In this document: one piece after another, positions 31,043-38,278 of the stretch
Position numbering within the stretch: position 1 is the stretch's first letter
Layout: each line of letters begins with the position of its first letter
NCBI GenBank assembly: GCA_019309565.1
Contig: JAFDFZ010000013.1
Location: forward strand, 1-64,000
Length of the DNA: 64,000 nt
From: Deltaproteobacteria bacterium
GTDB lineage: Bacteria; Desulfobacterota; Desulfobacteria; Desulfobacterales; SURF-15
Direction: 5' to 3'
Position numbers and translations under genes: made by a program
Notes under the pieces: model-generated
What the model saw: only the letters and a program-made list of their open reading frames with translations
Databases searched by the model: none
What the model was told of the DNA's origin: nothing

Positions 31043-33718
31043 CTAATACTGCACATCCGCCCAGTTGTCACCTCGTCCGATATTGATCTTTAGTGGAACC
31101 CTCAGATGCCATACATTTTCCATGATGGATTTGACAAGCTCTTCAACCTTCTCCAGCTCATCACACGGGACTTCAAAAACCAGTTCATCGTGCACAGAAA
31201 GCAACATGGCGGTTTTGAGGCCATGTTGCTCTAGGGCCGCATCTATTTTTATCATCGCCATCTTGATAAGATCGGCTGCTGTTCCCTGGATTGGCGTGTT
31301 GATGGCAACACGTTCTGCAAAGCTTCGAACCGCTGGGTTTGAGCTGTTGATTTCGGGAATTAGACGGATACGATCAAGCAGGGTGCTTGTTTTCCCTGTT
31401 TTTCTGGCTGTCTCAATAGTTTTTTGTATGAAGCGCTTAACCCCGCTGTAACGGGAAAAATAGTTATCGATGTACACTTTTGCCATTTTTTGGCTGATGC
31501 CCAACTGCTTGGACAACCCATAAGCACTCATACCGTATATGATTCCGAAATTGATGGCTTTGGCCTGTCGTCTGAGCTCCGGTGTGATCTTAGCCGGGGG
31601 GATTCCGAATATTTCACCGGCTGTGCGGGTATGAATATCTTCATCTTCCAAAAAGGCGTTCACCAATATTTCGTCTTCAGAATAATGAGCAAGAATTCGA
31701 AGTTCGATTTGAGAATAATCGGCAGATATGAATTTCCAGCCCTTTTCCGGAATAAAAGCGCTACGGATCTGCTTGCCTTCCTCGGTGCGGATGGGGATGT
31801 TCTGCAGATTCGGATCGGAGCTGCTCAGTCTGCCGGTTGCCGTTACGGTTTGATTGTATGAGGTATGGATGCGCCCGGTTTCCGGGTTGATCAGCTCCAA
31901 AAGCGCATCGGCATAAGTGGATTTTAATTTTGCAAGACTACGATGAGACAAAATGAGAGCCGGCAATTCATGCTGGGTGGCCAATGTGGTCAGCACATCG
32001 ACATCCGTGGAATGGCCGGTTTTCTTTTTGGTCTTCTTTTGTGCCGGCAGCCGGAGTTTTTCAAACAGGATGCGCGATAGCTGCTGGGAGGACTTTATGT
32101 TGAATTCTTCACCGGCAAGTGCGTAAATTTCTGCCTCGATGCGTTCCAGTTGATGGCGAAAGGCTTCCGACAAATCCTTAAGCCGTTTTTTATCGACGCA
32201 GACACCTCGCATTTCCATTTTCATTAGCACCGGTACCAGCGGGATTTCCACGTGTTGAAGCAGACGAATCAATCCGAGTTCTTTGAGTTTTGGTTCGAGA
32301 ACGTTTTTAGCGCAAAGCGTAATATCTGCATCCTCGCAGGCATACGGAACCGCTTTTTTCAGCGATACGGTTTGAAACCCCACCCCTTTTTTCACCTTTC
32401 CCACCACTTCTTTGTAGGAAATAGTTTTATAATCCAAAAAGTCCAGTGCGATCTGATCCAAATTATGGAATCGTTTGGAAGGGTTCAGCAGATACGAGGC
32501 AAGCATTGTATCAAATGCCACACCGGCAAGCCTGATTCCGTGGCGCAGAAGTACCATCCAGTCATATTTGATGTTTTGCCCGATTTTTTTGATGTTCGGA
32601 TTTTCAAGCACCGGTTTCAGCCTGTTCAGCGTTTCGGTAAGATTCAGCTGCGGGGGGGCTTCAGGATCGTCGTGGGCGAAGGGGAGGTAGAACGCTGCAT
32701 CGGGTTCAATTGAGAAGGAAAGTCCCACCAGTTTTGCTTTCATGGGATCTTCTGAAGTGGTCTCTGTATCCAGGGCCATCTCCGATGCCGCATTCAACCG
32801 CTGGATGAGTTCCGCTAGGGCCTGAGAGTCCAAAACGGCCCTATAGTCTTTCTTCGTGCGATCTGTCTCTTCGGGGAATAGTTGCTGCAGTTGTCGAAAC
32901 TCCAGCATTTTGAACAACTTTAACAGTGCGGCTTTATCCGGGGCTCCAATTTTAAATTGTTTTTCGTTAAACTCAACTGGTGCGTGTGTGTCGATCGCCG
33001 CCAGTTTTTTGCTTAAAAAGGCTTGGTCTTTATAAGCAACCAGGATTTCCTTTTGTTTTTTCTTTGTGACGCGGTCTAAATGAAGATAAAGCGTCTCCAG
33101 GTTTCCAAACGCCTTAATCAGAGACAGTGCGGTTTTCTGACCGATACCGGGCACCCCTGGAATGTTGTCGCTCGCATCGCCTGAAAGGCTCATGACATCC
33201 AGCATCTGCTGGGGTGATACACCAAATTCCTTTTTTACGGTGATATCATCGATGATTTTGTCTTTCATCGGATCCCAAATCAGGGTATTGGGTGTTAAAA
33301 GCTGCATGAAATCTTTATCTCCTGTCACTATCACTACGAAAAAACCGTGCTTTTCTGCGCTGCGGGCCAGGGTTCCGATAAGATCATCTGCTTCATAGCC
33401 TGGTATTTCAAAGATTGGTATATTGAAGGCTTCTGTGACCTGTCTTACGTAAGGGATTTGAACTGCCATGTCCTCCGGCATGGTCGGCCGGTTGGCCTTA
33501 TAGGCTTTAAACATTTCGTGACGAAAAGTTGGGCCTTTGGCATCGAAAAACATTCCGGCATACTGCGGAGATCGAACTTCCATGAGCTTTATAAGCATTC
33601 GGGCAAACCCGAATACGGCATTTGTGGGCAGCCCTTTTGAATTGGTAAGACCCCGGATGGCATGATAGGCCCGATGGATATATGCGGTTCCGTCTATCAA
33701 ATACAATGTTTTTTTCAT
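31043..33718 (-). CDS. polA: DNA polymerase I
   Basis: 891 residues. The 5'-3' exonuclease domain begins KKTLYLIDGTAYIHRAYHAI and includes TGDKDFMQLL. The 3'-5' proofreading domain keeps DTETTSEDP, IGQNIKYDW and YACEDADIT, so catalytic acids are intact. The polymerase domain has DYSQIELRILAHYS, RRQAKAINFGIIYGMSAYGL and VHDELVFEVP. It fills gaps in repair and replaces RNA primers. ATG at 33718 was preferred because the 23-residue upstream extension is unlike PolA N-termini. Monocistronic. Confidence 0.96.
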   Translation of the reverse strand: MKKTLYLIDGTAYIHRAYHAIRGLTNSKGLPTNAVFGFARMLIKLMEVRSPQYAGMFFDAKGPTFRHEMFKAYKANRPTMPEDMAVQIPYVRQVTEAFNIPIFEIPGYEADDLIGTLARSAEKHGFFVVIVTGDKDFMQLLTPNTLIWDPMKDKIIDDITVKKEFGVSPQQMLDVMSLSGDASDNIPGVPGIGQKTALSLIKAFGNLETLYLHLDRVTKKKQKEILVAYKDQAFLSKKLAAIDTHAPVEFNEKQFKIGAPDKAALLKLFKMLEFRQLQQLFPEETDRTKKDYRAVLDSQALAELIQRLNAASEMALDTETTSEDPMKAKLVGLSFSIEPDAAFYLPFAHDDPEAPPQLNLTETLNRLKPVLENPNIKKIGQNIKYDWMVLLRHGIRLAGVAFDTMLASYLLNPSKRFHNLDQIALDFLDYKTISYKEVVGKVKKGVGFQTVSLKKAVPYACEDADITLCAKNVLEPKLKELGLIRLLQHVEIPLVPVLMKMEMRGVCVDKKRLKDLSEAFRHQLERIEAEIYALAGEEFNIKSSQQLSRILFEKLRLPAQKKTKKKTGHSTDVDVLTTLATQHELPALILSHRSLAKLKSTYADALLELINPETGRIHTSYNQTVTATGRLSSSDPNLQNIPIRTEEGKQIRSAFIPEKGWKFISADYSQIELRILAHYSEDEILVNAFLEDEDIHTRTAGEIFGIPPAKITPELRRQAKAINFGIIYGMSAYGLSKQLGISQKMAKVYIDNYFSRYSGVKRFIQKTIETARKTGKTSTLLDRIRLIPEINSSNPAVRSFAERVAINTPIQGTAADLIKMAMIKIDAALEQHGLKTAMLLSVHDELVFEVPCDELEKVEELVKSIMENVWHLRVPLKINIGRGDNWADVQY

Positions 33719-34245
33719 GGTACCACCGGATGTGGTTGCATTGACAGGTGAAAGGCCCTGCGTTAAAGTTTTCCAAACTGCGGGCAATCTATACCATTTA
33801 TGGCTTAAAACAACAACCGCCTCGAACAGGAAGCAGCAATTATGGTGTAGGCTTCAAACAGTTGATCGCTCCAAAATCCGATCACCCGGCTCCATAGCAA
33901 ATTGACTTAGAATTCCTGAATAGGAAGGTGTTTGCAGATCTTTTTGCGATAACTCGAAGCGAAAATCCTGGTCAGCAGTCGAGTGACTATGGGAGATGAT
34001 GAGGCAAGCATGTCGGTGGGGGGGCAAAATTAGGTGTTCGACACAGCCCCAGCAAAGCAAAGACATATGAGTGTCACTGCTGCAGGCGGTCTTTTACATT
34101 TTGCTGGCGCTGCCGGTGTGGCTTTAGCATATGCCAGGGTTGCATGGAAGAAAACTTATGGGGCATGTCCTGCAACGGAATTACCTGGCAGTGTCCGGAT
34201 TGCGGCAGCCAGAACGGCTTTGGTAATCAGTAATGATGCCAAGCG
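33719..34245. other. 527-bp region without a convincing gene
   Basis: Between polA and the HAD gene. An 82-codon plus-strand frame (34034-34282) overlaps the HAD gene and lacks a ribosome site. A gggggggc tract is at 34018-34025. No repeat, RNA or promoter pair was recognised. Confidence 0.45.
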
Positions 34246-34860
34246 CTATTTAAGGATTCGTTTAAGCTCCCACAGGCTTTGAATATGGTATTGGGCGGAA
34301 AGCGCCGGGTTGTTATATGCAACAAGGGGGATTCCCGCCCCTTTTGCCGCCGTTTCATCAAGAGCAGAATCACCCACATAGATCGCCTCTTGAGGCTTCA
34401 CATGGAAATGCTCAAGGATTTTAAGAAGGGGTTCCGGATCTGGTTTGGGCCTGTTTACATCCTGTGCGCTTACGACAAGGTCGAAATCGTCTTTCAGATC
34501 GAATTCATCCAGCACCCGATGGATTGTAACCATCCGGTTGGTGGCAATGGCCGTTTTATACCTGCTGCGGAGCCATTTGAGCAAGGGCTTGAGGCAAGGA
34601 TCGATTTCAAGGTATCGAATGAATTTCATATCGTTCATCTGTTTTCTGTATGTTTTTGCAGCTTGAAGCATCTCCGGCTCTTTGAACAGGAATGCTGCTG
34701 TTTCATCAAAGGTATGCATCTGTGCATATGCTGTCTGCTCCGGGGTCAGCTCAGGCATGTTAAAATGATGTAATATTTCATTATAAAAGGTCGTGTTCGC
34801 CTTTACGGAATCAAACATCACCCCGTCGCAATCAAAGGCAACGACTTTAATATGGTTCAT
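34246..34860 (-). CDS. HAD-superfamily phosphatase, phosphoglycolate phosphatase-like
   Basis: 204-residue haloacid dehalogenase hydrolase. Motif I VAFDCDGVMFDS holds the nucleophile Asp, motif II is TAIATNR, motif III has the Lys in NRPKPDPEPL and motif IV is YVGDSALDETAAKGAGI. A helical cap lies between motifs I and II. Such proteins dephosphorylate small metabolites; the substrate is unknown. The DUF1573 gene ends upstream with a 31-bp gap on the same strand. Confidence 0.88.
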   Translation of the reverse strand: MNHIKVVAFDCDGVMFDSVKANTTFYNEILHHFNMPELTPEQTAYAQMHTFDETAAFLFKEPEMLQAAKTYRKQMNDMKFIRYLEIDPCLKPLLKWLRSRYKTAIATNRMVTIHRVLDEFDLKDDFDLVVSAQDVNRPKPDPEPLLKILEHFHVKPQEAIYVGDSALDETAAKGAGIPLVAYNNPALSAQYHIQSLWELKRILK

Positions 34861-34891: not shown

Positions 34892-35596
34892 TTAGTTGAT
34901 ATTGCCAAATACCCAGATGTCGATATTCGAACGAATCTTGCTATCTATTTTCAATTTTATGGTATCGAAAAATCGCCCTTTTGTTGTCTTCGTATTTTCA
35001 ACAATAAGCAGATATGCGTCTCTGTTTTCCCGTTTTACGGTTTCCATTTCAAATCGAATAAATTTTCCCCTTTCAGCCACAGCATCAACGATCTTAAACG
35101 GATATTTCTTTTCCGGCAAAATGATGACAGATACTTTTTTCGTGGTGCCCACAGGAGCATTCAGCTTGACATGGCGCGGGCGAATGACGACAAATCTCTC
35201 GATATATCCCTGGAGCAGCAAAATTAACCGGGGTCGTTTCGGGTCATTGGTTTCTACGATAATTTTTTTCTTGAATTTTCGGCCGCCGTATCCACTTGTA
35301 TCTCCTTTGATCGTTATGGTTCCCTCGCCACCGGCGGGGATCTGTTTCGTAAAAGAAACAGCAGTACAGCCTCAGCCGGTACGCACCTTATGGATTCTTA
35401 AGATGGCATTACCCTTATTCTGTATCTTAAATTGATGGGTAACCTCGGTGCCCTCTGGAACAGGTTCAAACTCGAATCGAGTTTCGGGCAAAAATGCCTC
35501 GGGACTGCCATTTTCAGTCGAAGCCGTCCCTGCACCGGCTGCAAGAAAAAAAAGATAGCCGATGGCAAATAAAATGGTCAGGGTTCTTGTTTTCAT
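34892..35596 (-). CDS. DUF1573 exported protein, candidate selenoprotein (in-frame UGA)
   Basis: 234 residues if UGA at codon 75 is read as selenocysteine. A signal peptide (TLTILFAIGYLFFLAAGAG) precedes DUF1573: F.F.PVPEGTEVTHQFKIQN, then LRIHKVRTG-Sec-GCTAVSFT and PAGGEGTITI, GGRKFKKKI and VETNDPKRP. The reading frame stays open and in register on both sides of UGA. The UGA falls exactly where Cys homologues have the first Cys of the (S)CGCT motif. DUF1573 proteins are periplasmic with immunoglobulin-like folds and an unknown redox or metal role. Alternatives are a nonsense mutation or a Trp suppressor, both less likely. No strong ribosome site decides the start. Confidence 0.78.
35372..35374 (-). 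other. putative selenocysteine UGA codon
   Basis: UGA followed by GGC UGU ACU (Gly-Cys-Thr), making a Sec-Gly-Cys redox-like motif. Downstream RNA can form CUGUUUC/GAAACAG (stem starting 11 nt after UGA, loop UUUUAC). It can also form a hairpin CCCCGCC-GGU-GGCGAGGG with a GGU loop centred about 40 nt after UGA. Neither is a perfect bacterial SECIS: the first lacks a loop G and the second is slightly distant. Confidence 0.6.
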
Positions 35597-35836: not shown

Positions 35837-38278
35837 TTACATCATATCCACTGGATCCACATCTACTGCAACCGTAACCTGCCTGTTGTTCATCAAGGAG
35901 CGGTTGTCAAGCAGTACTTGGTGAACAAGACGATGAAGCGCTTTGACATCAGATCCTTTCAAAAGAAGCTGCCAGCGGTATCGACCGGAAATCTTCGGTA
36001 CTGGCGCAGCGACAGGGCCGAGCAACTGGATAGTGTCCAAGGACGTCTTTAGGGTCTTAAGCATCGAGCGGCAGCTTTTTCCAACCGCTTGAGCAGCCTT
36101 TTCGGTTTGCTGCTGGTTTTTGCCTGAGATTTTGATTAAAATCATTCTTGTAAAGGGTGGATATTTAAGTGCTTCTCGGAACTGAATTTCCTTTTCGTAA
36201 AACGCGATGAAATCTTGTTGCTGGGCTGTGATGATACTGAAATGATTCGGATTGTACGTTTGTAAAACCACCTTTCCAGGAGATTCCCCTCTTCCGGCCC
36301 TTCCGGAAACCTGTGCAAGAAGCTGAAACGTACGTTCACCTGCCCGGAAATCCGGAAAATTCAAGGAAAGGTCTGCGCAAATGATTCCGACCAGAGTGAT
36401 GTTAGGAAAATCGTGCCCCTTGGCCACCATTTGGGTGCCCACAAGGATGTCGATGGTTTGACTCCTAAGTCCTTTCAGCAGTTTTAATAGCGAGCCCTTT
36501 GCTCTGGTGGTATCTCGATCCATGCGTGCGACCCTGGCAGTCGGAAACAAGCTCTTGACCGCCCCCTCGATTTTTTCAGTACCGAGCCCCAATAGCTGGA
36601 TTTTGGCAGAACCGCAGGCCGAACAATTTGAGACCGCTGGCTTTGCGAAACCACAATAATGACATTTATATGCATTGATTTTCCTGTGCAGGGTAAGCGA
36701 AATGTCGCAATTTTTGCATCGAACGGGCTCGCCGCAAGAGGCGCAAATGGGAAAAGAGGCATATCCTCTACGGTTAAGAAACAAAAGTACCTGCTCTGAG
36801 CGGTTTAAAGTTTCTCTTATGGAAACAACCAGTTCATCGGACAGAAAGCGCCTGATTCCACGTTTATGTCTGATTTTGCATAGATCGACCACGGTTATCT
36901 GCGGCAGACATCGTTTTTCCACGCGATTTTTAAGGATCAATTCCACAAAGTTTTGTCTCTTAACATTGTGATAAGATTGAACGGAAGGGGTTGCAGAGCC
37001 CAAGAGCACGACGGCCTTTTGAAGTTTTGCCCTCACCACGGCAAGGTCTCTTGCATTGTAACGAAGTTGGTGCTCTTGCTTATAGGAGCTGTCGTGTTCT
37101 TCATCTACGATAATAAGTCCCACTTCTGAAAACGGTGCGAAAATGGCCGACCTTGCACCAATGGCAATGTTAACCTCTTTTCTTAGAATCCGAAGCCACT
37201 GATCGTATCGCTCACCACCGGAAAGACCGCTGTGAAGAATTGCCACGCAATCCCCGAAACGAGCCCGAAATCGTCGCTGCATCTGAGAGATCAACGCAAT
37301 TTCCGGCACCAGCACCAGCACCTGATATCCCTGTTGAAGGGCGGCGGCGGCAAGCTGCATATAGACCTCAGTTTTTCCGCTTCCCGTAACCCCCGCCAGC
37401 AGGTACGTAGAAAATCCTTTTCCAAACGAATTCAAAACGGTCTCAACCGCTTTTTGCTGTTCTGCGGAAAGGATGGGCGGGGTATCAGGCGGTATGCTCT
37501 CTCCGAAAGGGTCGCGATAGACCGCCCGATGGAACAAACGAACATGCCCGCTGATTTCCATGGCTTTGATAAGGCGTGAAGCCGAGGGTACGATCTTTTT
37601 CAGATCGGCAACGGGCATTTCCGGATTTGCCGATAACGCTTCGATGATTTTAAGACGCTGCAATGAAAGCCCCTCTAAAGGGCCAGTTGGATCAAGCAGC
37701 GCAGCGAAGCGTTCCATCTTGGGTTTTATCTCTGCGCCTCTAAGTTCTTTTCGCCTGGTTATCCATCCGCGGCATTCTAAACGATGAATCAGTGCTGCGG
37801 AGACATCGGCTTCAAGATTTTTAAGAAATTTCTTTAAACGACAGGGGCCGCTTCGCTTTAAACCTTTAAGGATTTTCGCCTCAAGGGATGTAAGCTCCCC
37901 ACCGGTGAGCGCTGCTTGTCCTTCTTCTGTCAGCTCAATGATTACCGCTTCATAAAGGTTGACCCCTGCCGGCAGGGCGCACTTTATTACATTTCCGATA
38001 GGATGCATGTAATAGGAGGAAATCCATTGAAAAAACGGGATCATTGATGCGGGAAATAAAGGAGTTTCATCCAGTACATCCAATATCGGCTTTACATCCT
38101 TGATTATGGAAGGGTTTCCGGCTCCCAGAACATAACCGGAGATTTTGCGTTCTGAAAAGGGAACAAGCACCCTTTTCCCCGCGCATACGATAGATGACAG
38201 AGGTTTTGGTACCTCATAGGTAAAGGTATGGTAAACGGGTAAATCAACAGCCACTTCAACATATGGCAAACCGGTCAT
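35837..38278 (-). CDS. priA: primosomal protein N' (replication restart helicase)
   Basis: 813-residue PriA, which reloads the replisome at stalled forks. The N-terminal 3'BD domain starts VEVAVDLPVYHTFTYEVP. Helicase motifs include GVTGSGKTEVYMQL, VDEEHDSSYKQ and GSATPSVQSYHNV. The zinc-binding insert has eight cysteines (CASCGEPVRCKNCDIS, CHYCGFA, CSACGSAKIQLLGLGTE). Motifs V/VI appear as GTQMVAKGHDFPNITLV and QVSGRAGRG. Full length. Located upstream of the DUF1573 gene on the same strand with a 240-bp gap. Confidence 0.96.
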   Translation of the reverse strand: MTGLPYVEVAVDLPVYHTFTYEVPKPLSSIVCAGKRVLVPFSERKISGYVLGAGNPSIIKDVKPILDVLDETPLFPASMIPFFQWISSYYMHPIGNVIKCALPAGVNLYEAVIIELTEEGQAALTGGELTSLEAKILKGLKRSGPCRLKKFLKNLEADVSAALIHRLECRGWITRRKELRGAEIKPKMERFAALLDPTGPLEGLSLQRLKIIEALSANPEMPVADLKKIVPSASRLIKAMEISGHVRLFHRAVYRDPFGESIPPDTPPILSAEQQKAVETVLNSFGKGFSTYLLAGVTGSGKTEVYMQLAAAALQQGYQVLVLVPEIALISQMQRRFRARFGDCVAILHSGLSGGERYDQWLRILRKEVNIAIGARSAIFAPFSEVGLIIVDEEHDSSYKQEHQLRYNARDLAVVRAKLQKAVVLLGSATPSVQSYHNVKRQNFVELILKNRVEKRCLPQITVVDLCKIRHKRGIRRFLSDELVVSIRETLNRSEQVLLFLNRRGYASFPICASCGEPVRCKNCDISLTLHRKINAYKCHYCGFAKPAVSNCSACGSAKIQLLGLGTEKIEGAVKSLFPTARVARMDRDTTRAKGSLLKLLKGLRSQTIDILVGTQMVAKGHDFPNITLVGIICADLSLNFPDFRAGERTFQLLAQVSGRAGRGESPGKVVLQTYNPNHFSIITAQQQDFIAFYEKEIQFREALKYPPFTRMILIKISGKNQQQTEKAAQAVGKSCRSMLKTLKTSLDTIQLLGPVAAPVPKISGRYRWQLLLKGSDVKALHRLVHQVLLDNRSLMNNRQVTVAVDVDPVDMM

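Follow-up and report, generated by a model that had tools for sequence, protein, structure and literature searches.

Does the single in-frame UGA of the DUF1573 gene in this stretch of desulfobacterial DNA, from a relative of sulfate-reducing bacteria, end a protein, or does it encode selenocysteine (Sec)? In the window, which is the whole stretch of 64,000 nucleotides that was analysed, the gene and its principal elements lie as follows:

34892..35596, minus strand: OS_HP2-family DUF1573 gene, predicted to contain Sec (234 codons; ATG at 35596-35594, stop codon at 34894-34892)
35519..35596, minus strand: N-terminal hydrophobic leader, approximately residues 1-26, by inspection taken for a signal peptide (helix over residues 3-19 in the AlphaFold2 model)
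35372..35374, minus strand: in-frame UGA, codon 75, read as selenocysteine from the frame and the homologue column
35366..35374, minus strand: U-G-C motif, Sec75-Gly76-Cys77; all 71 aligned proteins have (U/C)-G-C here
35198..35491, minus strand: NF041425/DUF1573 domain, residues 36-133, from profile matches

The plus strand of 34892-35596 is closed and a single frame reads on the minus strand, its only TGA being codon 75 (window positions 35374-35372); the translation runs MKTRTLTILFAIGYLFFLAAGAGTAS...RTG-U-GCTAVSFTKQIPAGG...ETNDPKRP. The initial annotation had proposed a candidate selenoprotein in which a UGA at 35372-35374 interrupts DUF1573 within a frame that is open on both sides, a reading that our analysis supports. 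The position is exact, the strand (minus) being our addition, and the continuity of the frame is borne out by a single stretch of 234 codons in which Pfam DUF1573 gives one match across the UGA (residues 38-123, 71.5 bits, cutoff 26.1); the DNA-level match contains one TGA. The leader, MKTRTLTILFAIGYLFFLAAGAGTA, resembles a signal peptide by inspection and implies that the protein would be exported to the periplasm. False genes had also been foreseen from automatic calling, and the part after the UGA does appear in the ORF list as a false 109-residue ORF with a TTG start (35221-34892); standard callers will annotate the Sec gene as broken or split in many Desulfobacterales genomes.

The family itself is not new, having been listed before as a predicted selenoprotein. 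The protein matches NCBIfam NF041425, 'OS_HP2 family (seleno)protein', over residues 36-133 with 140.3 bits (cutoff 100), sharing with it the profile match, the UGC motif and the assignment to Desulfobacterota, and differing by ordinary sequence divergence only. A DUF1573 (PF07610) 'UGC' selenoprotein is tabulated in two reviews (PMC9312934, Table 1; PMC13188914), both of which cite Zhang and Gladyshev (2007) for the Olavius algarvensis symbiont; in so far as the reviews describe it, the symbiont protein has the same Pfam domain and the same UGC motif, and the organism differs. What is new here is the near-universality of the gene in the order Desulfobacterales, its HAD/priA context, the repeated switching between Sec and Cys, and the unusual two-hairpin form of its candidate SECIS.

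Of 96 Desulfobacterales genomes, 89 carry in-frame homology flanking the UGA, with exactly one TGA in most matches, and its presence on both sides of one TGA in so many genomes excludes chance; the DUF1573 gene is near-universal in this order. The UGA had been assigned to the first Cys of a conserved motif, and alignment with Cys-containing homologues agrees, since homologous frames of the same order have UGA (62 cases) or Cys (17 cases) at this column, followed by a Gly-Cys that never varies. A second, named collection, obtained with an 8-row alignment query and partly overlapping the first (59 of its 77 post-UGA sequences are new), holds 77 UGA and 3 Cys members, mostly from MAGs titled Desulfobacterales or Desulfobacteraceae. 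Cultured carriers of the UGA are Desulfosarcina alkanivorans PL12 and D. widdelii PP31 (complete genomes), D. cetonica and Desulfatitalea alkaliphila. A search of genome contigs with the single DUF1573 protein as query returned no relatives, and a plasmid search for relatives returned no match. The Cys-type proteins of the same order (e.g. L061, L067, L071) have the same fold and CGC in the same column, but differ from the Sec type in having Cys for Sec, in having mostly lost the hairpins described below and, usually, in their neighbours. The residue preceding Sec is Gly in 54 of 62 sequences; among the 17 Cys sequences that position holds Ser in 8 cases and Gly in 4 (alignment A2). One DUF1573 match (G141:C274:20763-21023) contains two in-frame TGAs.

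A check of the Sec machinery, as the initial annotation had suggested, was positive: the genome encodes SelA (627 bits), SelB (393 bits), SelD (350 bits) and a tRNA-Sec with anticodon UCA (76 bits), and SelB exceeds its cutoff in 84 of the 96 genomes of the order. Two lesser tRNA-Sec matches proved to be tRNA-Leu and tRNA-Trp. SelD of this genome (L039, G000:C132:13739-14662) is a Sec protein itself, with one in-frame UGA (...SCG-U-AAK...). UGA-readthrough stretches of the window, taken from a list that is not exhaustive, gave no sign of a second selenoprotein when scanned with Pfam.

Decoding by SelB would depend on RNA structure downstream of the UGA, where two hairpins are found:

35342..35361, minus strand: candidate SECIS hairpin H1, CUGUUUC/GAAACAG, 7 bp, with a 6-nt loop starting 17 nt past the UGA
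35321..35340, minus strand: candidate SECIS hairpin H2, 8 bp interrupted by one bulged A; its apical loop, GGU, starts 39 nt past the UGA

SECIS-like hairpins had been noted at the outset and are present, yet their description as imperfect does not hold, H1 having seven unbroken pairs and H2 eight pairs with one bulge. Their energies in the gene studied are -7.9 kcal/mol (H1) and -12.5 kcal/mol (H2), and 0.06% of its resampled versions fold equally well over H1 and H2 together. We evaluated stability against synonymous codon resampling with the amino acids kept, a null in which related sequences are treated as independent. In UGA genes H1 averages -8.3 versus -3.3 kcal/mol under the null (z -18; each of the 57 genes lies below its own null mean) and H2 -10.2 versus -5.6 kcal/mol (z -14.5; 56 of 57); the size of these z-scores is not readable as a probability, and the sounder argument is the contrast with the 20 nt following H2 in the same genes (z 0.1) and with the Cys genes, a small set (n = 17) that gives z -3.0 at H1 and +0.3 at H2.

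H1 also covaries. Changes on both sides of the stem occur in 46 cells versus 18.3 +/- 5.0 in shuffles, pairing is 81% versus 29-42% when slid, and one pair shows the compensatory states U-A (30), C-G (21) and U-G (6) with zero mismatches. In 59 further UGA sequences H1 retains a mean of 6.05 of 7 pairs, versus 2.67 in Cys sequences. Covariation in H2 is weak because the codons of PGGEG constrain both of its arms, so that the synonymous-codon test is what carries the case for this hairpin. Judging from these comparisons, the post-UGA RNA structure is selected beyond coding in UGA genes and has largely disappeared from Cys genes. Rfam at gathering thresholds gave no match in the window, hence no SECIS family to back the hairpins, and the evidence for them is therefore comparative.

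The published model of bacterial SECIS places a G within the first two nucleotides of a loop that starts 16-37 nt past the UGA, and has an apical loop of 3-9 nt, an upper stem of 4-16 bp and a minimum free energy of -7.5 kcal/mol or lower (PMC13188914, Fig. 2A). H1 (7 bp, 6-nt loop) and H2 (8 bp, 3-nt loop) agree with this model in loop size, stem and energy, but neither combines the loop G with the 16-37 nt spacing. The spacing of H1 fits (17 nt) but its loop, UUUUAC, is without the G, which is absent in 41 and present in 16 of 57 genes; the loop of H2 has the GG (G42G43 in 55 of 57) but starts 39 nt away. By way of illustration, and for one gene only, the SECIS-like hairpin of selD conforms to the model (loop GUUC, 21 nt past the UGA). 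Some bacterial SECIS elements are known to deviate from the model (PMC13188914), and that of DUF1573 may be one of these rather than new. A two-hairpin SECIS, with selection preserving both hairpins in UGA genes alone, is a possibility that we hold tentatively and with less than even confidence; SelB would then read H2 at an unusual distance, or H1 and H2 would act jointly, in which case they would represent a distinct class of bacterial SECIS. The atypical element offers material for probing RNA recognition by bacterial SelB.

How well do these results hold against a UGA that is a real stop, with the gene a decayed pseudogene, the product a truncated protein of 74 residues or the codon an assembly error? 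In genetic code Table 11 UGA is a stop, within the window it terminates 10 of the 35 open stretches that reach 250 codons or more, and the source genome is a draft assembly with 7.9% contamination. Against this, dozens of species and independent genomes share the UGA at this column, among them the cultured Desulfosarcina and Desulfatitalea isolates named above, and the sequence downstream of it is conserved as protein; these comparative data rule out sequencing error or decay as its source, answering the concern about read errors raised initially, and the probability left to a real stop is negligible. Readthrough without SelB, by near-cognate insertion of Trp or Cys or under a reassigned code, could draw on the departure of the H1 loop from the published consensus, but we consider it very improbable: UGA stops elsewhere in the window, which speaks against a global reassignment, homologues in the aligned sets never replace the UGA by anything but Cys, and the RNA structure persists where the codon is UGA but has largely gone where it is Cys. 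Homologues, Sec machinery, post-UGA RNA structure and the use of UGA as a stop elsewhere in the window form four independent lines of evidence that agree: the UGA of the DUF1573 gene is almost certainly decoded as Sec, to which we assign a probability of about 0.95. The product would be an exported OS_HP2/DUF1573 selenoprotein with SelB-decoded Sec75 and a likely Sec75-Cys77 selenylsulfide.

In the mechanism that we propose, which the sequence comparisons strongly support, SelA, SelD and tRNA-Sec would make Sec-tRNA, and the hairpin or hairpins just past the UGA would recruit SelB, with insertion of Sec at codon 75. The AlphaFold2 model of the protein (pLDDT 94.7, pTM 0.79) consists of two beta-sandwich domains and places U-G-C at a turn of the first domain (model residues 73-76), between strands 66-72 and 77-82. 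Foldseek retrieves ASH/HYDIN-type Ig domains and 2qsv (E 7.9e-8), Pfam gives a match to a HYDIN/VesB Ig domain (41 bits), and a PDB sequence search with the protein returned nothing meaningful. The mature exported protein is accordingly modelled as two Ig-like domains of ASH/HYDIN type carrying the motif on a strand-strand turn of the first. The entry 2qsv, a protein of unknown function from Porphyromonas gingivalis W83, resembles it as a two-domain beta-sandwich; the likeness is at domain level, given a whole-chain TM-score of ~0.36-0.38, a different domain packing and no Sec reported.

Sec75 and Cys77 are the sole chalcogen residues noted for the protein, which has no further Cys (nor have 60 of 71 homologues in the aligned region examined), and since they are conserved together they would most likely form a reversible selenylsulfide, by which electrons or thiols would be exchanged with a partner in the periplasm. 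DUF1573 is without a thioredoxin fold, so that a redox role is proposed by analogy with other Sec/Cys proteins, and we regard the odds that Sec75-Cys77 is a redox-active selenylsulfide pair as about even. The Sec form would point to the active site of DUF1573 proteins in general. The genes around the locus bear on this question:

34246..34860, minus strand: HAD_2 phosphatase, next downstream after a 31-nt gap, the same neighbour in 42 of 61 UGA loci
35837..38278, minus strand: PriA primosomal helicase, next upstream, the same neighbour in 26 of 61 UGA loci
31043-33787, minus strand: polA, in the window with priA, DUF1573 and HAD on the same strand

Both priA and HAD flank DUF1573 in 21 of 61 UGA loci (the order is often priA-DUF1573-HAD), and the three counts are lower bounds, given contig ends and simple ORF calling. 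These usual neighbours, priA, HAD and polA, are uninformative on redox chemistry. A subgroup of UGA genes (L050, L084, L108, L119, L115 and partly L099) lies with MauE and rhodanese, and part of it also with an ArsP permease, an arsenite-methyltransferase-like gene, an ArsR-like regulator and SurA-thioredoxin genes. Several Cys genes adjoin HdrA-like and formate-dehydrogenase-like genes, as named from their sequence.

The main rival to a redox function accepts that Sec is inserted and takes Sec-Gly-Cys for a metal or metalloid site (e.g. As, Hg or Cu). U/C-x-C motifs can bind soft metals, a capacity that counts in its favour together with the arsenic-related genes near that subgroup. However, most UGA genes, the one studied here included, lie by priA, HAD or polA without metal genes, and the subgroup holds redox genes too (MauE, rhodanese, thioredoxin). 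We judge metal(loid) binding unlikely, and less probable than the selenylsulfide.

Finally, a quick tree of 71 proteins requires nine changes between U and C, at least four of which are forced by its starred branches, and on this topology the DUF1573 gene has switched repeatedly between Sec and Cys. The closely related sister genes L115 (UGA) and L070 (Cys) illustrate such a switch: the Cys gene still carries a perfect and complete H1, likely a SECIS fossil, as would be expected if Sec was lost recently. The Sec/Cys switches, with loss of the SECIS, form a clean natural series, to which L070 belongs with its first hairpin intact. In both L070 and L115 a MauE-like domain precedes DUF1573 in frame and without a stop, a possible fusion. 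Locus L075 (G066:C37) has a tandem DUF1573 pair, one with UGA and one with Cys, and Cys-type DUF1573 genes lie within ~6-12 kb of an extra selB-like gene in G049:C1 (~1766463-1780000) and G013:C31 (~144350-153478).
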